Below, one piece after another: positions 24,138 to 35,549 of a stretch of 64,000 nucleotides of DNA. Source of the stretch: Lysobacter sp. CFH 32150. Lineage in GTDB: Bacteria; Pseudomonadota; Gammaproteobacteria; Xanthomonadales; Xanthomonadaceae. How positions within the stretch are numbered: the stretch's first letter is position 1; each line of letters opens with the position of its first letter. The translations under genes were made by a program, and so were the position numbers. Location: positions 124,001 through 188,000 of the forward strand of contig NZ_JALDWJ010000009.1 in assembly GCF_022758295.1 (NCBI RefSeq), written 5' to 3'. Under the pieces are notes generated by a model. The model searched no databases. It saw nothing but the letters and a program-made list of their open reading frames with translations, and had not been told where the DNA came from.

Positions 24138-24402
24138 TTACGCCGGCGGCACCGGCTCCGCTTCCACCTTGCGCGGCCCGTTGTTCTCGAAGCGCTTGCC
24201 CGCGTCCTGCGCAGTCCGTGCAGGCCTTCGCCCTTGCCGGCGATCTTCAGGAAGGCATAGCGCTCCAGCGCCATCACCACCACGTCGCTGCCCAACGCCA
24301 TCTCGGTGTCGTTGGCTTTTTCCATCACGCGCTGCAATCGCACCAGTCGCGTGTTGAGCGCATCGTGCGCGGCCAGGTCGCGGCGCATTTCCTCGATGTC
24401 GA
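24138..24402 (-). pseudogene. C-terminal fragment of a split gene, with frameshift
   Basis: Read leftwards from 24402, the frame encodes IEEMRRDLAAHDALNTRL, then RVMEKANDTEMALGSD and ALERYAFLKIAGKGEGL; it then shifts frame near 24220 and ends as KRFENNGPRKVEAEPVPPA at 24138. The N-terminal part is missing: upstream of 24402 the sequence passes directly into a half REP element (24404-24431). The missing N-terminus lies at 26238-26535, and both fragments share a 120-bp nearly identical segment. I do not recognise the intact family. Confidence 0.6.
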
Positions 24403-24567: not shown

Positions 24568-26127
24568 GTGCCCACCACCCTCACTCAGCGCGGGCTCGGT
24601 TCCGCCGCGGACCGCCTCCCTGCAATGCGTCTGCGTTGGCTGGCCTTGGCCGCGCTCGCCGCCGCCACCGCCGCGCAAGCGCAGACATCGGCCACGCCTA
24701 ATCCGCTCGCCGTCCTCGACCATGGTTTGCGCCCCAGCGTGACCGCGCCGGGCGAGGCGGTACCACGCTGGTCGCTGGACGAGCGCATGCGCCACTACAA
24801 GGTGCCCGGGGTGGCGGTCGCGGTGCTGAAGGATGGCGAAGTGGTGCAGGTGGCCGGTTACGGCGTGCGCGAGGCCGGTACGCAGGACAGGGTCGATGGG
24901 GACACACTGTTCTCGGTCGGTTCGATCAGCAAGGTCGCAACGGCGACGACGACGCTGCGACTGGTGGCGCAGGGGCGGCTCGATCTGGATCGCAATGTCG
25001 ACGATTACCTCAAGCGCTGGGAACTGCCGGCCTCCGCCGAAGTACCGCAGCCGCGGGTGAGCCTGCGTATGCTGATGTCGCACACCGCCGGGCTGGGCTT
25101 GCACGGGTTCGCGGATTACCAGCCCAATGAACCGTTGCCGACCCTGGTGCAGGTGCTCGACGGACAAAAGCCAGCCAAGGGCGAGGCGGTGCGGTTCAAA
25201 TGGGCGCCGGGCCTAGTCAACGATTATTCCGGCGGCGGCGTCACTGTGGAGCAGGCGGTCATCGAGGATGCGACCGGCAAACCGCTGCAACGTCTCGCCG
25301 AGGAACAACTGTTTGCGCCGCTGCGCATGCGTCGCAGCACGTTCGAGAGCCCGCTGTCCGCCGCGCGCGGCAACATCGCCAAAGCGCACAACAGCGACGG
25401 TGCGCCGGCCGCGTTGCCGCGCGGCTGGGAAAGTTTCGCCGAGGCCGGGGCGTCGGGCCTGTGGACCAGTGCGAACGATCTGGGGCGGCTCGTGGGCGGC
25501 CTGATCAAGAGCTACCAGGGGCGTACCGATTTCCTGCTGCAGCCACTGGCCACGGCGATGATGACGCCAGTGTCACCGGGCCCGTTCGGCCTGGGACCGC
25601 GCCTGGGCGGTGTCGGCCTGGGACGGCATTTCTTCCACATGGGCGCCAACGACAGCTACCGGGCCTACTTGGAGGGGTATCCGGAAACCGGCGACGGTTT
25701 TGTGATCCTCACCAACGGCACTAATGGCACCCAACTGTCCTTCGAGATCCGCAACGCGCTGGCTGACGCGATCGGCCTGGGCGCGCGTCCGTTGCTGCGT
25801 AGCGTGGCGCCGCGCGTGCCGCCATCGCCGGACTATGCCGGCAGCTACCGGCTCGACGCCACCGTGCCGATGGATCTGCGCCGCGCGTCGGCCGACAACT
25901 TCGACTACGAATCCCTCCAGGTGCGTATCACTGGCGATGCAGCAGAAATCGTACTGCCGGGTCAGGACAAGCCGCAGCCGCTGCTGCCGCTGGGGCCGGC
26001 GCAATTCGTGCAGGCCGGGCTTTACATGTTCGTGTTCGATTTCCGCCGCGATGCCTGGGGCAAGGTGCGCGGAGTGTCGGTGTCGATACCGGAGGCGGAT
26101 TCGGTGGCGTACTACGTGCGCGAATGA
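24568..26127 (+). CDS. Exported serine hydrolase, beta-lactamase family
   Basis: A 519-residue protein (shorter if it starts at ATG 24625) with an Ala-rich signal peptide (core WLALAALAAATAAQAQ). The nucleophile motif is S119-I-S-K122. The second motif position reads Y220-S-G, not YxN, a departure from classical beta-lactamases seen in some esterase-like members. A C-terminal beta-rich domain covers about 415-519. The GTG start at 24568 has AAGGGA upstream, whereas ATG 24625 has none. The gene is enclosed by the two halves of a split gene and by REP-like elements, suggesting it arrived or was rearranged there. Confidence 0.87.
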   Translation: MPTTLTQRGLGSAADRLPAMRLRWLALAALAAATAAQAQTSATPNPLAVLDHGLRPSVTAPGEAVPRWSLDERMRHYKVPGVAVAVLKDGEVVQVAGYGVREAGTQDRVDGDTLFSVGSISKVATATTTLRLVAQGRLDLDRNVDDYLKRWELPASAEVPQPRVSLRMLMSHTAGLGLHGFADYQPNEPLPTLVQVLDGQKPAKGEAVRFKWAPGLVNDYSGGGVTVEQAVIEDATGKPLQRLAEEQLFAPLRMRRSTFESPLSAARGNIAKAHNSDGAPAALPRGWESFAEAGASGLWTSANDLGRLVGGLIKSYQGRTDFLLQPLATAMMTPVSPGPFGLGPRLGGVGLGRHFFHMGANDSYRAYLEGYPETGDGFVILTNGTNGTQLSFEIRNALADAIGLGARPLLRSVAPRVPPSPDYAGSYRLDATVPMDLRRASADNFDYESLQVRITGDAAEIVLPGQDKPQPLLPLGPAQFVQAGLYMFVFDFRRDAWGKVRGVSVSIPEADSVAYYVRE

Positions 26128-26182: not shown

Positions 26183-26238
26183 GGAAAACAGGGGTCAGAG
26201 AACCATTTCATAAAAATGTACTCTGACCCCTGTTTTCC
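26183..26238. repeat. Extended REP-like palindrome
   Basis: Perfect 18-bp arms GGAAAACAGGGGTCAGAG (26183-26200) and CTCTGACCCCTGTTTTCC (26221-26238) enclose a further imperfect dyad (AACCATTTC...AAAATGTA). It is the longest member of the family seen at 6846 and 16084 and abuts the split-gene fragment on its right. Confidence 0.75.
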
Positions 26239-26535
26239 GTCGCTGCCCAACGCCATCTCGGTGTCGTTGGCTTTTTCCATCACGCGCTGCAACCGCACCA
26301 GCCGCGTGTTGAGCGCATCGTGCGCGGCCAGGTCGCGGCGCATTTCCTCGATGTCGAGGTCGCGCGACAGCATCCCGGTGTTCTCGGCCATCACGTCCAG
26401 CGCCTTGCGGCAGAACGCCTCCGACGCGTCACCCCTCTTGACCACCCACTGGCGCATCCGGGGAACAGAACGAGGAGGCCAGGAACCTTCCGAGGCCGCA
26501 GAAGAGGCCATCGATGCATGGAACAACTTCGTCAA
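26238..26535 (-). pseudogene. N-terminal fragment of a split gene
   Basis: Read from 26535 leftwards: MTKLFHASMASSAASEG, then MRQWVVKRGDASEAFCRKAL and IEEMRRDLAAHDALNTRL, reaching MALGSD before running into the REP palindrome at 26238. The last 120 bases repeat 24283-24402 with two mismatches seen by eye. Together with the fragment at 24138-24402 it would make one helical protein of about 145 residues. The intact family is not recognised. Confidence 0.6.
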
Positions 26536-26596: not shown

Positions 26597-28549
26597 ATGA
26601 ACCAATCCGCGCTATCCGCTTTCATTTGGTCTGTCGCCGACCTGCTGCGTGGCAATTACAAGCAATCCGACTACGGCAAGGTCATCCTGCCGTTCACCCT
26701 ATTGCGTCGCCTGGATTGCGTGCTGGCTCCGACCAAGGCGGCGGTGCTGGCCGAATACGCCGACCGCAAGAAGCTCAAGATTGACCTCAAGCCGTTCCTG
26801 ACGAAGAAGAGCAAGCACGGCTTCTACAACACATCGAAGCTGGACTTCGTCACGTTGCTGGCCGACCCCGGCAACATCCGCAAGAATATGGCGTCCTACC
26901 TCGCCGGGTTCTCGGACGACGTGCGCGACATCTTCGAACGCTACGACTTCTCCCGCCAGATCGAGAAGCTGGACGAGGAGAACCTGCTGTACCTGATCGT
27001 GCAGAAGTTCGCCAAGGTGAACCTCAGCCCCAAGCACGTCAGCAACGTGCAGATGGGCATGATCTTCGAGGAGCTGATTCGCAAGTTTGCAGAACTGTCC
27101 AACGAGACCGCGGGCGAGCACTACACCCCGCGCGAGGTCATCCGCCTGATGGTGGACCTGTTGTTCAACCCTGACGACAAGGTGCTGACCAAGCCCGGCA
27201 CCGTGCGCTCGATGTACGACCCGACCGCAGGAACCGGCGGCATGTTGTCGGTCGCCGAGGAATACCTGCGCGTCCTTAACCCTGACGCCAAGCTGGTGGT
27301 GCACGGCCAAGAGTTGAACCCAGAGTCCTACGCCATTTGCAAGGCGGACATGCTGATCAAGGGTCAGAAGATCGAGAGCATCGCGCTGGGCAACACCCTG
27401 TCGCACGACGCCCACGCCGGCGCGCATTTCGACTACGGACTGTCCAATCCACCGTTCGGTGTGGAGTGGAAGAAGGTCGAGAAAGCAGTTCGTGACGAGC
27501 ATGAGAAGAAAGGCTTCCACGGCCGCTTCGGCCCGGGCCTGCCGCGCGTGTCCGACGGCAGCCTGCTATTCCTGATGCACCTGCTCAGCAAAATGCGCCC
27601 GGTCAGCCAGGGCGGCGGCCGCGTCGGCATCGTGCTCAACGGCAGCCCATTGTTCACCGGTAACGCCGGATCGGGCGAGAGCGCCATCCGCCAATGGGTG
27701 CTGGAGAGCGATTACCTCGATGCCATCGTGGCCCTGCCCACGGACATGTTCTACAACACCGGCATCAGTACCTACGTGTGGATCCTGTCCAACCACAAGC
27801 CGAAGGCGCGCAAGGACAAGGTCATTCTGATCAACGGCGTCGACTTCTTCCAGAAGATGCGCAAGAGCTTGGGTTCCAAGCGAAAGGAACTGGGACAAGG
27901 CGACATCGATCGCATCGTCAAGTTGTATGGCGACTACGCGCCGACCGAGCACAGCAAGATCTTCGACACCCGCGATTTCGGCTACTCCACCATCACCGTC
28001 GAACGCCCATTGCGGCTCAACTTCGCCGTTAGCGCCGAGCGCCTGTCGCGACTGGATACGAGCAAGCCGCTGGCGAAACTCGGCGATGACCTCGACGCGC
28101 TCAAGCAAGCCTTGGCGAAGCTGGGCGCGAAGAGGCAATGGAGCAGCCGTGAGGCGTTCCTGAAGGACGCGAAGAAGACCATTGCCGCTGCCGGCGTGAC
28201 GCTGGCGCCGCCGCAACTCAAGGCCCTGTGGGAAACGTTGGGCGAACGCGACGAACACGCCGAAGCCTGCACCGACAGCAAAGGTCGCCCCGAGCCGGAC
28301 AGCGACCTGCGCGACACCGAGAACGTGCCACTGTCCGACGACATCCAGGCTTACTTCGAGCGCGAGGTGTTGCCACATATGGCTGACGCATGGATCGACC
28401 ATGACAAGACCCGGATCGGTTATGAGATTCCGTTTACCCGTCACTTCTACCAGTACGTGCCGCCGCGGCCGCTGGAGGAGATCGATACCGAGCTGAAGGC
28501 GTTGTCGGCGGAGATCATGGAGTTGCTGGGGGAGGTCGCTTCTGCATGA
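26597..28549 (+). CDS. hsdM: Type I restriction-modification system, methyltransferase subunit
   Basis: A 650-residue HsdM that methylates adenine at the site chosen by HsdS. The N-terminal helical domain (about 5-150) begins FIWSVADLLRGNYKQSDYGK. The methyltransferase core has the AdoMet-binding DPTAGTGGM (208-216) and the catalytic NPPFG (284-288); YTPREVIRLM (about 176) is the usual linker motif. The C-terminal part (about 490-650) is helical. AGGA precedes the ATG. The gene overlaps hsdS by ATGA. The length is on the long side for the family but within its range. Confidence 0.96.
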   Translation: MNQSALSAFIWSVADLLRGNYKQSDYGKVILPFTLLRRLDCVLAPTKAAVLAEYADRKKLKIDLKPFLTKKSKHGFYNTSKLDFVTLLADPGNIRKNMASYLAGFSDDVRDIFERYDFSRQIEKLDEENLLYLIVQKFAKVNLSPKHVSNVQMGMIFEELIRKFAELSNETAGEHYTPREVIRLMVDLLFNPDDKVLTKPGTVRSMYDPTAGTGGMLSVAEEYLRVLNPDAKLVVHGQELNPESYAICKADMLIKGQKIESIALGNTLSHDAHAGAHFDYGLSNPPFGVEWKKVEKAVRDEHEKKGFHGRFGPGLPRVSDGSLLFLMHLLSKMRPVSQGGGRVGIVLNGSPLFTGNAGSGESAIRQWVLESDYLDAIVALPTDMFYNTGISTYVWILSNHKPKARKDKVILINGVDFFQKMRKSLGSKRKELGQGDIDRIVKLYGDYAPTEHSKIFDTRDFGYSTITVERPLRLNFAVSAERLSRLDTSKPLAKLGDDLDALKQALAKLGAKRQWSSREAFLKDAKKTIAAAGVTLAPPQLKALWETLGERDEHAEACTDSKGRPEPDSDLRDTENVPLSDDIQAYFEREVLPHMADAWIDHDKTRIGYEIPFTRHFYQYVPPRPLEEIDTELKALSAEIMELLGEVASA

Positions 28550-29862
28550 GGACTTATCCCGAATATCGCGATACGGGCCTACCCGAGATCGGCACGATAC
28601 CGACGCACTGGGATGCTGGACCAATTAAGCGCGGCTACGAAGTTGTACTGGGCAAGATGCTCAAGCGGGCGCCAGCAACCACTCTTGATCTGGAGGCGCC
28701 GTATCTCAGAGCCGCGAATATCCAGCCAACGGGGCTGGACTTGGATGACCTGAAAACGATGTGGTTCAGTTCAACGGAACTGCACCGTCTGCAGATCGAG
28801 CAAGGTGACCTTCTCGTAAGCGAAGGCGGTGATGTCGGTCGGGCAGTCATAGCAGGGCCTGTTAATGGAGAGCTTGGCTTTCAGAATTCGGTCAATCGGG
28901 TTAGAGCTTATGAGCCCAACACCGCGCGCTTCCTCTACTACTGGCTCCGGGCAGTAAAGGATGCTGGATACATTGATGCGCTGTGCAACAAGTCGACAAT
29001 CGCTCACTTCACGGCCGAGAAAGTTCAGTCTGCCCTAACTCCTTACCCGACTGGTGATGAACAAATTGAGATAGTTCGCTATCTCGACCGCGAAACCTCT
29101 CGCATCGACACCCTGATCACCAAGCAGCAGCGGCTAGTCGAGCTGCTTCAGGAAAGGCGCCAGGCCCTTATCACCCGCGCCGTCACCAAGGGCCTCGACC
29201 CGGCTGTGTCGATGAAGGACAGCGGCGTGGAGTGGCTGGGCGAGGTGCCGGCACATTGGCATGTGCACCCACTCAAACGCATTAGCGCGCTTACCGTTGG
29301 AATCGTCGTTGAACCCGCGAAGCATTACGTTGAATCCGGTGTTCCGACTCTGAGATCGCTGAACATACGGCCAGGATTTATTGATCAATCCAACCTTGTA
29401 TACATCTCGGATGATTCCAACCGCCTGCTGTCCAAGTCAAGGCTCAGGTCTGGAGACTTGGTTGCGGTGCGGACTGGCCAGCCAGGGACCACTGCGGTCA
29501 TCCCTGCGGAACTAGATGGGTGCAACTGCATTGATCTGATCATCATCCGGAAGCCGGTCGAAGGCTGCCAAAAATATCTTTGTTGGTATTTGGCGGCCGA
29601 TGTGGCAGTCCGGCAGTTCTCAGAAGGGTCAGGTGGCGCAATCCAACAGCATTTCAATGTAGGAACGGCGATGAACCTCCTCGTCGTTGTGCCCCCAACG
29701 GACGAGCAAGTTGAAATCGCCGACTTCCTCGATAGCGAAACGACAAAAATCGACCACCTGATCGATCAAACTCAAAGAATGGTCGCTCTTTCGAGGGAGC
29801 ATCGGGCGGCTCTGATATCGGCCGCTGTCACCGGCAAAATCGACGTGAGGCAAGCCGCGTGA
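28546..29862 (+). CDS. hsdS: Type I restriction-modification system, specificity subunit
   Basis: A 438-residue HsdS with two target recognition domains (about residues 15-170 and 225-385), each followed by a conserved helical spacer: first EIVRYLDRETSRIDTLITKQ, then EIADFLDSETTKIDHLIDQT. Both half-subunits end with similar helices (RRQALITRAVTKG and HRAALISAAVTGK), the usual internal duplication. The two recognition domains are noticeably more A/T-rich than the neighbouring genes, as expected for domains exchanged by transfer. The DNA sequence recognised cannot be predicted here. Confidence 0.95.
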   Translation: MRTYPEYRDTGLPEIGTIPTHWDAGPIKRGYEVVLGKMLKRAPATTLDLEAPYLRAANIQPTGLDLDDLKTMWFSSTELHRLQIEQGDLLVSEGGDVGRAVIAGPVNGELGFQNSVNRVRAYEPNTARFLYYWLRAVKDAGYIDALCNKSTIAHFTAEKVQSALTPYPTGDEQIEIVRYLDRETSRIDTLITKQQRLVELLQERRQALITRAVTKGLDPAVSMKDSGVEWLGEVPAHWHVHPLKRISALTVGIVVEPAKHYVESGVPTLRSLNIRPGFIDQSNLVYISDDSNRLLSKSRLRSGDLVAVRTGQPGTTAVIPAELDGCNCIDLIIIRKPVEGCQKYLCWYLAADVAVRQFSEGSGGAIQQHFNVGTAMNLLVVVPPTDEQVEIADFLDSETTKIDHLIDQTQRMVALSREHRAALISAAVTGKIDVRQAA

Positions 29863-29947: not shown

Positions 29948-31048
29948 ATGCCGATTTACCGAGTAACCGATAGCTCCCTTCAGCCCGTTGCCGAAACAAC
30001 CTTTGCCAGCGAACGTCTGCTGGAACGCCGCGACTTGCAACGATTGTTGCGTGCCGATATCAGCCCATTGGGCGAAGACATCATGGTGATCGCGGAGGAG
30101 TTCGCGGAGTGGGACGCCAGCCAGCGACGCATCGACCTGCTTTGTTTGGACCGGGATGCCAGCCTTGTCGTGGTGGAGCTCAAACGCACCGAAGACGGCG
30201 GTCACATGGAGCTCCAAGCTATTCGCTACGCGGCGATGGTCTCCAGCATGACGCTGGAGCGGGCGGTGGCGACTTATGCGCGCACCCTCGGTGGGGATGA
30301 TGCCGAGGCCAAGGCACAGCGCGAGATCCTAGAGTTCCTCGATCTTCCCTCGGTTGATGAAGGTGCCTTGTCTGACAAGGTTCGGATGATCCTTGTGGCC
30401 GCTGATTTTTCGACCGAGTTGACCACTTCCGTTATGTGGCTCAACAAGCAGGAGCTGGACATCACATGTATTCGCCTGAAGCCGTATCGATTGGATGGGC
30501 AAGTGCTGTTGGATGTCAGTCAGATCATTCCGCTACCTGAAGCGGCGGACTATGTCGTACGCGTGCGTGAGCGTGAGCAGGAAAAGCGCAAGGTGGTCAA
30601 TGGTAGGCAGCAGATTCTCAGGCAGTTCTGGGCTCAGCTGATCGATCGATCCAGGCCGAAAACTAACCTCTTGACGAACCGCAGTGCGACGACGGACCAC
30701 TGGCTAAGTGCCGGTATTGGCCGCTCTGGATTCGGCCTAAATCTCAGTCTTGCCCAGGACTTCGGGCGCGTGGAGTGCTACGTACGATTGCCCGGCGACG
30801 ACGGTGAGCGTTCAGATCGGGCTTTTGAGCAGCTATTCGCTCAGAAGGAAGCGATCGAGAAAAAGTTTGGTGCTCCTCTCGAATGGCAATCCCTTCCCAA
30901 CCGAATCGGCTCTCGTCTCTGTTTCGAGTTTCCGGGCGGCTGGACATTGCCCGAAGAACAGTGGCCTGACTATCAGGACATCCTTATCGACGCGATGGTG
31001 CGGTTGGCGAATGCGTTACGGGAACCCGTCCAGCGACTAAACGTCTGA
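29948..31048 (+). CDS. DUF4268 protein with PD-(D/E)XK nuclease-like domain inside the hsd operon
   Basis: A 366-residue protein. The N-terminal half (about 1-150) has a nuclease-like core: D63 in RIDLLCLD, then E77-L-K79 in VVVELKR, followed by a helix with Gln and Tyr (LQAIRYAAM), the PD-(D/E)XK pattern. The C-terminal half (about 220-366) matches DUF4268: QILRQFWAQLIDR, then YVRLPGDDGERSDRAFEQLF and a final WPDYQDILIDAMVRLANAL. GGGGAAG lies before the ATG. It sits 85 bases after hsdS and 12 bases before hsdR, so it is in the operon. It may be an accessory nuclease or modulator of the system; this is inferred. Confidence 0.85.
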   Translation: MPIYRVTDSSLQPVAETTFASERLLERRDLQRLLRADISPLGEDIMVIAEEFAEWDASQRRIDLLCLDRDASLVVVELKRTEDGGHMELQAIRYAAMVSSMTLERAVATYARTLGGDDAEAKAQREILEFLDLPSVDEGALSDKVRMILVAADFSTELTTSVMWLNKQELDITCIRLKPYRLDGQVLLDVSQIIPLPEAADYVVRVREREQEKRKVVNGRQQILRQFWAQLIDRSRPKTNLLTNRSATTDHWLSAGIGRSGFGLNLSLAQDFGRVECYVRLPGDDGERSDRAFEQLFAQKEAIEKKFGAPLEWQSLPNRIGSRLCFEFPGGWTLPEEQWPDYQDILIDAMVRLANALREPVQRLNV

Positions 31049-31060
31049 GGTAGCTCCCAC

Positions 31061-34000
31061 ATGAACCTGCATAAGGAACTCAATTTCGAGCGCGAGATCT
31101 GCCAGCACCTCGCCGCGCACGGCTGGCTGCATTCAACGAACGACAAGGGTTACGACAAGGCTCTGGCGTTGTATCCCGAGGACCTCATCGGCTGGCTCAA
31201 GGACACCCAGAAGGACGAGTGGGCCAAGCTGGAGGCCTGGCACAAGGGCGATACCGAGAGGCAGCTGCAGCAGCGCGTCGCGCAACTGCTCGACAAGGTC
31301 GGTCCGCTGGAAGCGCTGCGCAAGAGTTTCAAGGACCACAGCGCACGTTTCGACCTGTGTCAGTTCCGCCCGGCTCATGGCCATAACCCTGATTCGCAGG
31401 CGCGCTATGCCGCCAATCGCTTGCGAGTGGTGCAGCAGGTGCACTACTCGCAGCACCACAACAACTCGATCGACCTGGTGTTTTTCATCAACGGTATTCC
31501 GGTGGCAACCGCTGAGCTGAAGACCGATTTCACCCAGACGCTGGCGGATGCCACGCGCCAGTACCGCGACGCGCGCCTGCCGCGTGACCCGGTGGCCAAG
31601 CAGGACGAGCCGCTGCTGGCGTTCAACCGCCGCGCGCTGGTGCACTTCGCGGTCAGCACCGATCGGGTGGCAATGGCCACTAGGCTGGCCGGCAAGGGCA
31701 CGTTCTTCCTGCCGTTCGACCAGGGCCATGACGAGGGTGCGGGCAACCCGCCCAGCGATGGCTATCGCACTGCCTATCTGTGGGAACGGGTGCTGCAACG
31801 TGATGCGTGGCTGGAGATCCTCGGCAGCTTCCTGCATCTGGAACGCAAGGAAGAAGTCGACAACAAGGGCAGCAAGAAGATCAAGGAGACGCTCCTGTTC
31901 CCGCGTTTCCACCAGTGGGAGGCAGTGAACAAGCTGGTGTCGACCGCACGTACAGAAGGTGCGGGCCACACCTATCTGGTCATGCACTCGGCCGGCTCGG
32001 GCAAGACGAATTCGATCTCGTGGCTGGCACATCGTTTGGCTGTGTTGCACGACACGCACGACGACAAGGTGTTCGACGGCGTCATTGTTATCACCGACCG
32101 CGCAGTGCTGGATGCGCAGCTGCAGGAAGCGATTGCGCAGATCGAGCACAAGACCGGTTTCGTCAAGACCATCGAGGCCAAGGACGGTGCCAAGTCGGGA
32201 CAGCTCAAGCAGGCTTTGATCGATGGCACGCCAATCATCGTGGTGACGTTGCAGACCTTCCCATTCGTGCTGGAGGCGATCAAGGGCGAGGCCGACCTCA
32301 AGAGCCGAAGCTTCGCGGTGATCGCTGACGAGGCGCATTCCTCACAGACCGGCGCCGCGGCCCGCAAGCTCAAGGAAGTGCTGACAGCGGAAGAACTAGA
32401 GGAGGGCGTCGAGGTCAGTGCCGAAGACCTGATGCTGGCCGAGATGGCGGCACGCACGCTACCGGGCAACATCAGCTTCTTCGCCTTCACCGCCACACCC
32501 AAGGCCAAGACCATCGAGTTGTTCGGTCGGCGACCGGATACGGCGCGCCCGGCCTCGGACGACAACAAGCCAGAACCGTTCCATGTCTATTCGATGCGCC
32601 AGGCGATCGAGGAGGAGTTCATCCTCGACGTGCTGCTCAACTTCACTCCGTACAAGCTGGCCTACAAGCTGGCGCACAACGGCAAGGATTACGACGACAC
32701 CGCCGTCTTGAAGTCCGAGGGAATGAAGCAGCTGGCGCGTTGGGTGCGCCTGCATCCGTACAACATCAGCCAGAAGGTCGCGATCATCGTCGAGCACTTC
32801 CGCCAGCACATCGGCGGGCGGTTGGATGGACAGGCCAAGGCCATGGTGGTGACTGCATCGCGCAAGGAGGCCGTGCGCTACAAGCTGGCGATGGACAAGT
32901 ACCTGGCCGAGAACAAGTACGGGCATATCCAGGCGCTGGTGGCGTTTTCCGGCGAGGTCCATGACCTGGATAGCGGGCCCGACAAGTTCACCGAGAACAA
33001 CATGAATCCGGCGTTGGGCAAACGCGACATCCGCGAGGGCTTTGCAACTGGAGAGTTCCAGTTGTTGTTGGTGGCCAACAAGTTCCAGACCGGCTTCGAC
33101 CAACCCAAGCTTGTGGCGATGTACGTGGATAAGCGGCTGGCGGGTGTGAGCGCGGTGCAGACGCTGTCGCGCCTGAACCGCATGTACCCAGGCAAAAAGG
33201 AAACTTTCGTGCTCGACTTCGTCAACGATGCGGATGAGATCCGCAAGTCGTTCGAGCCGTACTACCGTACTGCGCAGCTGGCCGGCGTGTCCGACCCGAA
33301 CCTGATCCATGACTTGCAAGCCAAGCTAGACGGCAAGCTGATCTACACGCCCAGCGAAGTCGATGGCTTTGCCAATGCGTGGTTCGACCCAAAGGGCACG
33401 CAGAAGGCATTGCAGCCGTTCATCGCACCCGCTGTGGATCGTTTTCGCGGTCAGCTGGATGACGCACGCAAGTCTGACGATAGCGAGGCCGAGGATGCAC
33501 TGGAACAGTTCGTCCGCGACCTGGGCAGCTTTGTGCGGATGTACGACTTCCTCTCGCAGATCATCAACTATGGCGATACCGATCTGGAGAAGCGCTACCA
33601 CTTCTTCAAATGCTTGATCCCGTGGATTCGCGAGCAGGGCCGTGGCGAAGCGGTCGACCTGTCCGGCGTCAAGCTGACGCACTACAAGCTGCGAGAAGGA
33701 CAGGAGGGCGGCATTCCCCTCGGAGTCGATGATGACCCGGCCACATATCAGCTCAAGCCGATCACAGAACTCGGCAGCGGGGAGGCGCATCAGGATGAGA
33801 AAGTGCGGCTGTCCGAACTGGTCAAGAAGCTCAACGATTTATTCGAGGGTGATCTGACCGACAGCGATACTGTGGCTTATGTGCAGCACATCACCGGCAA
33901 GTTGTTGGAGAACGATACGTTGGCGCAGCAGGCGGCGAGCAACACCAAGGCGCAGTTCGCGTTAGGCGACTTCAACGCCGCTCTCGAAGATTCGGTCATT

Positions 34001-34147
34001 GAAGGGTTGGACAACTATCAATCCATGGCCGAGCAAGTCCTAGGGGATCAGCGAAAGAAGCAGCAATTCGCGGATCTGGTGCTGGACTTGGTCTATGACG
34101 CTTTCAAGCAAAAGGCAGGGGTTGGTGGTATCGAGTCTTCACGGTAG
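31061..34147 (+). CDS. hsdR: Type I restriction-modification system, restriction subunit
   Basis: A 1028-residue HsdR, the translocating endonuclease. The nuclease domain has D138 (SIDLVFF) and E152-L-K154 (ATAELKTD). The helicase motor follows: Walker A AGSGKT near residues 311-316, DEAH at 423-426 (VIADEAHSSQTG), FFAFTATPK near 478, and the second RecA-like domain with FQTGFDQPKLVAMYVDK and QTLSRLNRMYPGK. The C-terminal 250 residues are helical and include LSQIINYGDTDLEKRYHF. All motifs look intact, so the enzyme should be active. Confidence 0.96.
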   Translation: MNLHKELNFEREICQHLAAHGWLHSTNDKGYDKALALYPEDLIGWLKDTQKDEWAKLEAWHKGDTERQLQQRVAQLLDKVGPLEALRKSFKDHSARFDLCQFRPAHGHNPDSQARYAANRLRVVQQVHYSQHHNNSIDLVFFINGIPVATAELKTDFTQTLADATRQYRDARLPRDPVAKQDEPLLAFNRRALVHFAVSTDRVAMATRLAGKGTFFLPFDQGHDEGAGNPPSDGYRTAYLWERVLQRDAWLEILGSFLHLERKEEVDNKGSKKIKETLLFPRFHQWEAVNKLVSTARTEGAGHTYLVMHSAGSGKTNSISWLAHRLAVLHDTHDDKVFDGVIVITDRAVLDAQLQEAIAQIEHKTGFVKTIEAKDGAKSGQLKQALIDGTPIIVVTLQTFPFVLEAIKGEADLKSRSFAVIADEAHSSQTGAAARKLKEVLTAEELEEGVEVSAEDLMLAEMAARTLPGNISFFAFTATPKAKTIELFGRRPDTARPASDDNKPEPFHVYSMRQAIEEEFILDVLLNFTPYKLAYKLAHNGKDYDDTAVLKSEGMKQLARWVRLHPYNISQKVAIIVEHFRQHIGGRLDGQAKAMVVTASRKEAVRYKLAMDKYLAENKYGHIQALVAFSGEVHDLDSGPDKFTENNMNPALGKRDIREGFATGEFQLLLVANKFQTGFDQPKLVAMYVDKRLAGVSAVQTLSRLNRMYPGKKETFVLDFVNDADEIRKSFEPYYRTAQLAGVSDPNLIHDLQAKLDGKLIYTPSEVDGFANAWFDPKGTQKALQPFIAPAVDRFRGQLDDARKSDDSEAEDALEQFVRDLGSFVRMYDFLSQIINYGDTDLEKRYHFFKCLIPWIREQGRGEAVDLSGVKLTHYKLREGQEGGIPLGVDDDPATYQLKPITELGSGEAHQDEKVRLSELVKKLNDLFEGDLTDSDTVAYVQHITGKLLENDTLAQQAASNTKAQFALGDFNAALEDSVIEGLDNYQSMAEQVLGDQRKKQQFADLVLDLVYDAFKQKAGVGGIESSR

Positions 34148-35022: not shown

Positions 35023-35067
35023 GGGGCTCTGATCGCGACTTACGTCGCTCCCACAGGGGCTCCCACA
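35023..35067. repeat. Dispersed repeat, copy 1
   Basis: GGGGCT followed by TGATCGCGACTTACGTCGCT and CCCACAGGGGCTCCCACAG. A near-identical copy lies at 35442-35487 and a shorter one at 41018-41045. Copies 1 and 2 flank the small coiled-coil gene. Confidence 0.7.
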
Positions 35068-35143
35068 GGGTTTCATGACATCGGCATTCACGTGCCCTAG
35101 GTACCATCGGGCGGTGGTCACCTTTCCCGCGAAGGAGCTCGTC

Positions 35144-35441: not shown

Positions 35442-35549
35442 GGGGCTTTGATCGCGACTTACGTCGCTCCCACAGGGGCTCCCACAGATCGTAGGGCGGG
35501 TCTTGACCCGCCATCGCGGCGACCGAAAAGCGGTGGGCTGAAGCCCACC
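35442..35549. repeat. Cluster of dispersed palindromic repeats
   Basis: Copy 2 of the CGCGACTTACGTCGCT repeat (35442-35487) is followed by the palindrome GGCGGGTCTTGACCCGCC (35495-35512) and by GGTGGGCTGAAGCCCACC (35532-35549). The second element recurs inside the ABC permease gene at 41798-41815. The whole 35411-35683 interval carries no other gene. Confidence 0.7.

Follow-up and report, generated by a model that had tools for sequence, protein, structure and literature searches.

The gene lying between hsdS and hsdR of a type I restriction-modification operon of Lysobacter sp. CFH 32150 is, as judged by profile match, a member of PDC-S11, an already listed candidate defence family. We read it, with a probability of roughly 0.6, as an anti-phage DNA nuclease that acts on its own and travels as cargo between hsdS and hsdR. 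In this reading its NucS-type PD-(D/E)XK domain would cut DNA using D63, E77 and K79, DUF4268 would bring two copies of the protein together, hold a protein or peptide partner by which the nuclease is targeted or triggered, or do both, and through the operon the gene would be expressed and transferred together with the type I system, the nuclease serving as an independent second layer against phages and plasmids that escape methylation-based restriction. We infer DNA as the substrate, metal-dependent cleavage, dimerisation, a trigger and the anti-phage activity; autonomy is suggested by copies without hsd genes on three of seven plasmid regions with the DUF4268 form and by a solo copy in E. 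coli, and a defence role by the PDC-S11 match and the recurrent defence contexts. An anonymous "DUF4268 protein" thus becomes a design, a predicted NucS-type cutter joined to a chaperone-like, probably protein-binding fold, in which the C-terminal part varies between relatives. New in this work are the DUF4268 fold, the count of moves into or out of hsd operons, the shared slot, and the constraint on the solo and embedded forms.

Organization of the operon and family assignment

The features of the locus, numbered along the window (the whole stretch of 64,000 nucleotides that was analysed), are as follows.

26597-28549, + strand: hsdM, type I methyltransferase subunit, 650 aa (Pfam N6_Mtase and HsdM_N; PADLOC MTase_I, E 5e-290)
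28546-29862, + strand: hsdS, specificity subunit, 438 aa (Pfam Methylase_S; PADLOC Specificity_I, E 3e-109)
29948-31048, + strand: embedded PD-(D/E)XK and DUF4268 putative nuclease gene of the PDC-S11 family, 366 aa
29948-30532, + strand: predicted NucS/EndoMS-type nuclease domain, residues 1-195 (model residues 21-181 match 5gke_A with a VIA-align Z of 11.5; sequence alignment)
30134-30136, 30176-30178 and 30182-30184, + strand: predicted catalytic codons D63, E77 and K79 (alignment)
30542-30652, + strand: predicted long connecting helix, residues 199-235 (AlphaFold model; pLDDT <50 at residues 197-202)
30620-31024, + strand: DUF4268 domain, residues 225-359 (Pfam; predicted chaperone/YbjN-like fold by Foldseek and VIA-align)
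31061-34147, + strand: hsdR, motor/nuclease subunit, 1028 aa (Pfam HSDR_N, SWI2_SNF2 and T1R_D3-like; PADLOC REase_I)

The operon opens with hsdM, and hsdM, hsdS and hsdR are all confirmed by both Pfam and PADLOC. The nuclease ORF is intact, starts with ATG 85 nt after the end of hsdS and stops 12 nt before the start of hsdR; the sequence-only reading had placed a PD-(D/E)XK plus DUF4268 gene there, and coordinates and Pfam agree with it. The Pfam DUF4268 match has an E value of 7.2e-24, above cut-off, and residues 29-98 resemble NucS_C (E 1.4e-4; 22.3 bits, slightly below the Pfam cut-off of 24), the same N-terminal region also showing a weak Pfam resemblance to HSDR_N. Among the Pfam matches of the protein up to E 1 there were none to the GmrSD domains DUF262 (GmrS) and DUF1524 (GmrD), to the Shedu family, or to the class I type III secretion chaperone and YbjN sequence families. 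Promoter and terminator scans gave no more signal than shuffled sequences.

The PADLOC profile of PDC-S11 (PDLC04909) matches residues 1-362 with an E value of 1e-115, so that the kind of gene is already known. The sections of the two sources that deal with PDC systems describe them as unvalidated, putative defence systems found by guilt-by-embedding (PMC10855318) or as PADLOC phage defence candidates (PMC12813430). PDC-S11 was present in 10 strains of a panel of 100 P. aeruginosa strains, and 90% of these were phage-resistant, which is a correlation only (PMC10855318, same section). The literature on PDC-S11, as sampled by a search lying outside most subscription journals and bioRxiv, gave in its accessible parts occurrence and correlation and no activity data. 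With PDC-S11 the gene shares the whole-length profile match, the single-gene composition and the origin of the candidate class in embedding within known defence operons, which is where the window gene and relatives of it are found; no difference from PDC-S11 was detected.

Conservation and predicted fold of the nuclease domain

Residues E51, D63, E77, K79, Q90 and Y94 show no variation across the 80 sequences aligned, all longer than 300 aa and comprising 42 with DUF4268 (own sequence included) and 38 without it. The catalytic set is invariant also in a wider set of 49 tree rows, own sequence again included, which reaches down to about 34% identity. The earlier placement of D63, E77 and K79, followed by a helix with Gln and Tyr, proved right: Q90 and Y94 lie on that helix, in a pattern that we take to be the QxxxY motif. 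The core fold, the D-(X)n-E-X-K arrangement and the QxxxY helix that characterize the PD-(D/E)XK superfamily are all found when the model, VIA-align and the alignment are considered.

The AlphaFold model, built from 32 sequences, consists of a NucS/EndoMS-type PD-(D/E)XK domain, a long helix and then DUF4268; its mean pLDDT of 88.1 together with a pTM of 0.55 means that each domain is well predicted and their relative placement is not. In VIA-align, model residues 21-188 matched NucS/EndoMS structures 5gke_A (Z 11.5; 3.0 A over 113 residues) and 2vld_B (Z 11.3; 2.6 A over 108 residues), and D63, E77 and K79 pair with D160, E174 and K176 of 2vld, as read off sequence alignments. A sequence search of solved structures returned only NucS, with E 0.93 for the single sequence and 0.12 for the profile, so that the relation to NucS rests on folds; the NCBIfam NucS equivalog cut-off was missed by far (21.6 bits against 216). 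Fold and D/E/K catalytic positions are thus shared with NucS/EndoMS, but the N-terminal domain of NucS is absent here, only residues 126-240 of the NucS chain align, and the nuclease domain is itself N-terminal and followed by DUF4268. Shedu SduA also has a PD-(D/E)XK defence nuclease domain (Z 7.3), but its accessory domain is of another kind. The prediction of the sequence-only reading that the protein may be an active nuclease is strengthened by the invariant catalytic set and the modelled NucS fold, and we consider the embedded protein probably an active PD-(D/E)XK nuclease.

The viral structure library contained a single match with E <0.001, Gp54 of Bacillus phage G (rmsd 16.7), and one of 50,697 phage records gave a match, unannotated and to the N-terminal domain only.

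The DUF4268 domain and the alternative C-terminal part

When residues 217-366 of the model were compared with VIA-align, class I type III secretion chaperones, YbjN and DR_1245 occupied ranks 4-19 (Z 8.7-7.4), led by 1xkp_B (Z 8.7), 3kxy_D (8.3), 1jyo_A (8.2) and 6vu7_D (8.0). These rows all belong to one fold group, with alignments of 113-126 residues at 6-14% identity; VIA-align warns that Z <8 may reflect a common arrangement, and 5 of the 16 chaperone/YbjN rows reach Z 8. Foldseek gave YbjN with a probability of 1.00 (E 5.7e-3), and its PDB list below the NucS rows mixed YbjN and chaperones with unrelated proteins (an Arp2/3 subunit, glutamate decarboxylases). The likeness of the predicted domain to class I type III secretion chaperones and YbjN is therefore borderline by the tool's own measure and one of fold only, the domain differing from these proteins in its fusion to a nuclease, in the low identity and in matching none of their sequence families. 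Class I type III secretion chaperones work by dimerising and by holding other polypeptides, and on this ground we consider protein binding or dimerisation a more likely role for DUF4268 than the reading of DNA.

A group of relatives, called class B below, shares approximately residues 1-215, the nuclease domains being 51-58% identical, and continues with another C-terminal part, for which no Pfam match was found in four proteins scanned; the VIA-align rows for class B span residues 16-204 only. It is conceivable, though quite unlikely in our estimate, that the chaperone-like DUF4268 clamps a phage polypeptide, for example an anti-restriction protein, and so switches on the fused nuclease. If this were true, the cassette would be an ordinary restriction system combined with a guard firing when restriction is attacked, and class B members would carry another sensor on the same nuclease.

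Genomic contexts of the relatives

A contig scan yielded 180 relatives; the 80 best were retained, and the fractions given here hold for these 80 rather than for the whole family. They fall into class A, full-length (L002-L042, 41 loci), and class B (L043-L081, 39 loci). Among these best 80 of 180, 14 of the 41 class A genes lie between hsdS and hsdR, and one more (L037) precedes hsdR with no visible hsdS, which brings the count to 15 of 41, where "hsd" denotes a match to the window's own hsd family. Some embedded class A loci have a further gene in the same gap. No class B gene (0 of 39) occupies the slot; one copy (L053) lies 0.9 kb after hsdR and another (L071) is preceded, at a distance of about 380 nt, by an hsdS remnant, with no match to hsdR. 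The difference between 15 of 41 and 0 of 39 (Fisher 1.3e-5, the classes being different clades) hints that DUF4268 may matter for the hsd context.

Neighbours were scanned for 13 of the 26 class A loci outside the slot, and in nine the gene is part of or close to another type I, type III, DUF3584/DUF7281 or PDC-S01 locus. Six (L003, L005, L007, L010, L017, L042) lie within or close to other type I operons, one has a type III methylase and a UvrD-type helicase nearby (L029), one has PDC-S01 and a helicase fragment (L002), and one has DUF3584 and DUF7281 proteins (L023), a locus that we presume to be Wadjet-like. An SNF2-type helicase lies 1.7 kb from a further copy (L040), and no defence gene was seen among the scanned neighbours of L012 (a single neighbour), L032 and L033. 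Five of seven scanned class B loci have a defence-type neighbour, namely a type I R gene (L057, L074), a type I M gene (L080), a type III gene (L066) or a Dsr1-like gene (L077); the scan found none at L044 and L073.

Ten plasmid regions were inspected, seven with the DUF4268 form and three with the N-domain and another C-terminal part. The order hsdS-gene-hsdR occurs on four of them (E. coli, Paracoccus, Vibrio and Roseomonas), and the DUF4268 form without hsd on three (Cereibacter, Klebsiella and Pseudomonas), where searches with the Hsd proteins of the window, E. coli and Vibrio found no hsd gene. HsdR of the Vibrio and Paracoccus operons, about 25% identical to that of the window, represents another type I family, so at least two distant families make use of the slot.

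Several loci had further peculiarities. In L009 (11099-12397) a second PD-(D/E)XK gene (PDDEXK_4) directly follows the nuclease gene and precedes hsdR. In L023 (2526-13192) the nuclease gene stands between the DUF7281 gene and a gene of 692 aa, downstream of the DUF3584 gene, and the downstream gene in L022 is similar in size to that of L023. On the Roseomonas plasmid (L102, 9999-11695) only about 200 aa of hsdR are left, an IS5-family transposase gene comes next, and the nuclease gene upstream is intact.

Mobility of the association with hsd genes

On the tree of 49 rows the slot label requires 11 changes, nine of them forced by well-supported branches. Twenty rows were labelled as in the slot, including four plasmid rows labelled by annotation, two of which (L105 and L107) belong to the distant type I family; 24 were labelled as not, including copies in or near other type I operons, and five class A loci with too-short flanks as unknown. 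The mean for shuffled labels was 15.8 changes, with 8 of 500 shuffles going down to 11 or fewer, so the label is clustered, yet has been gained or lost many times. HsdR (E <= 1e-60) was present in 48 of 369 genomes of the window's bacterial class, and a match to the nuclease gene (E <= 1e-10) was found in one of these 48, the window's own genome, and in none of the other 47. The association with hsd is therefore recurrent and not obligate. It is also neither rare nor random, rarity or randomness being what the sequence-only reading had named as refuting its idea: among the best 80 of 180 relatives it is seen at 15 of the 41 class A loci, and in E. coli in 56 of 56 near-complete cassettes.

Mirror-tree distances correlated with r 0.775 for the gene and HsdR and 0.975 for HsdM and HsdR, values confounded by shared ancestry and two distant rows and not relied upon. 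An HsdM tree needed four changes, three of them forced; it has long branches and joins gene-bearing rows of broad origin to gene-less rows from a single class, and serves as background only. A residue signature of embedded copies, considered as a possible interface, was rejected: only position 219 beat the shuffles (4 of 300 as high), and this is a variable linker site in a comparison whose shuffles ignore relatedness.

The hsdS-hsdR gap as a cargo slot

We surveyed 20 regions upstream of hsdR of the window's family, chosen from the better-scoring places. Where hsdS was visible (19 regions), the hsdS-hsdR gap measured at least 600 nt in 12 and at most 250 nt in seven. Nine of the 12 long gaps hold a gene with a Pfam match, and the other three only short or unassigned ORFs. 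The cargo comprises DUF4357 with sub-threshold GIY-YIG, SH3_3 with an IS200-like transposase, DUF3800, Schlafen AlbA_2, Fic, GmrSD_N with Fic, a D12 methylase, an AAA_21 ATPase and an HTH_3 protein; Abi_2 was found in one hsdM-hsdS gap of the same survey (L083-L101). The part of the RptR paper that bears on this (PMC12255303) places darTG2 between hsdS and hsdR and calls the site a potential recombination hotspot. The survey adds evidence that the hsdS-hsdR gap is a cargo slot reused by unrelated defence genes.

Embedded and solo forms in E. coli

Of 5,426 E. coli genomes, 57 carry a cousin sharing 34% identity with the window protein, at 37 chromosomal and 20 plasmid places. Its hsdR (at least 80% coverage) was found in 56 genomes, the same 56 records as the gene when the lists were compared by eye, and hsdR begins 14 nt after the end of the gene in each of 56 near-complete cassettes. 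These cassettes are close kin and so represent one association, retained on chromosomes and plasmids. Two further genomes have only a 3' fragment of hsdR and no gene, and one has hsdM without hsdR or the gene. The stretch from hsdS through the gene to hsdR often matches in two or three pieces, as would fit an exchange of HsdS target domains.

The 57th copy is solo, at 86.2% DNA identity, beside mobH and traD, with no hsd match within 10 kb. The embedded and solo proteins are 93.0% identical (dN/dS 0.050), and nine cassettes gave pN/pS values of 0.061 for the gene and 0.068 for hsdR, which indicates similar constraint on the protein with and without hsd: both forms are under purifying selection. 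The natural cassettes and the solo copy allow a direct comparison of embedding with autonomy.

In cassettes L104 and L112-L119 synonymous diversity declines downstream, with 0.18 at the 5' end of the gene, 0.066 at the 3' end and 0.016 in hsdR, as though the start of the gene were carried along when HsdS is exchanged.

Alternative explanations

The protein might instead be a latent reserve effector, which the type I complex keeps inactive and releases when a phage inhibits restriction, in the manner of PrrC of EcoprrI, with DUF4268 as the contact with Hsd subunits or the phage inhibitor. We hold such a latent state improbable. An effector gene within the hsd operon is what the locus shares with PrrC and with darTG2 of the EPEC type I locus, prrC being so placed in the relevant sections of PMC3874165 and PMC2610378. 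In E. coli the gene accompanies hsdR in 56 of 56 near-complete cassettes, which functional coupling could explain as well and which to that extent speaks against a cargo gene, as does the correlation of gene and HsdR distances, confounded as it is and far weaker than that of HsdM and HsdR; the recurrence of hsdS-gene-hsdR in at least two distant type I families and the predicted protein-binding type of the DUF4268 fold would likewise suit a latent effector. Its weak side is the freedom of the family: copies occur without hsd or beside type III or Wadjet-like loci, 9-11 moves into or out of the slot are seen on the tree, and no residue cleanly marks the embedded copies. PrrC orthologues are invariably linked to type Ic systems according to the section of PMC2610378 concerned, whereas this family includes copies with no hsd in the stretch; moreover, the embedded protein is of DNA-nuclease type, with neither an ABC ATPase nor a toxin-antitoxin pair. 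We give a similarly low probability to a modification-dependent, type IV-like nuclease acting on phage DNA whose modified bases let it escape the type I system, with DUF4268 reading the target. The relevant part of PMC4619093 states that DUF4268 most often accompanies DUF262 and DUF1524 in the GmrSD family, and the same nuclease domain can precede a different C-terminal part; the predicted DUF4268 fold, however, resembles protein-binding chaperones and no known modified-base reader, and the GmrSD domains are absent from the protein.

The mismatch endonuclease NucS/EndoMS is the top structural match, as would be expected of a NucS-type DNA-repair or housekeeping nuclease merely located in the operon, but the patchy distribution (one of 48 HsdR-bearing genomes, and the cousin in 57 of 5,426 E. 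coli genomes), the defence and mobile contexts and the NCBIfam NucS score make this very improbable. The same low standing belongs to a regulator or auxiliary subunit of HsdR. The position 12 nt upstream of hsdR would suit it, and the sequence-only reading had named control of HsdR among its possibilities, a proposal that finds no support: 47 of 48 genomes with this HsdR have no match to the gene (E <= 1e-10), the gene persists without hsd on three plasmids and beside mobH and traD in E. coli, unrelated cargo fills the same gap elsewhere, no clean residue signature parts embedded from other copies, and the invariant catalytic set would be needless for a mere regulator. The second defence line that it had also envisaged stands as a candidate role, supported by the PDC-S11 match and the recurrent defence contexts. 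The evidence as a whole favours an autonomous cargo nuclease.

Repeats around the operon

A 120-nt direct repeat, 98% identical, is present just upstream of hsdM at window positions 24283-24402 and 26238-26357. The two copies flank an ORF (24568-26127) that appears by eye serine hydrolase-like, and an inverted repeat lies at 26183-26238. A 46-nt repeat was found at 35023-35068 and 35442-35487; it is a dispersed palindromic repeat, the 24-bp core having 74 occurrences across the genome when two mismatches are allowed, against none for the reversed control, often as close inverted pairs.
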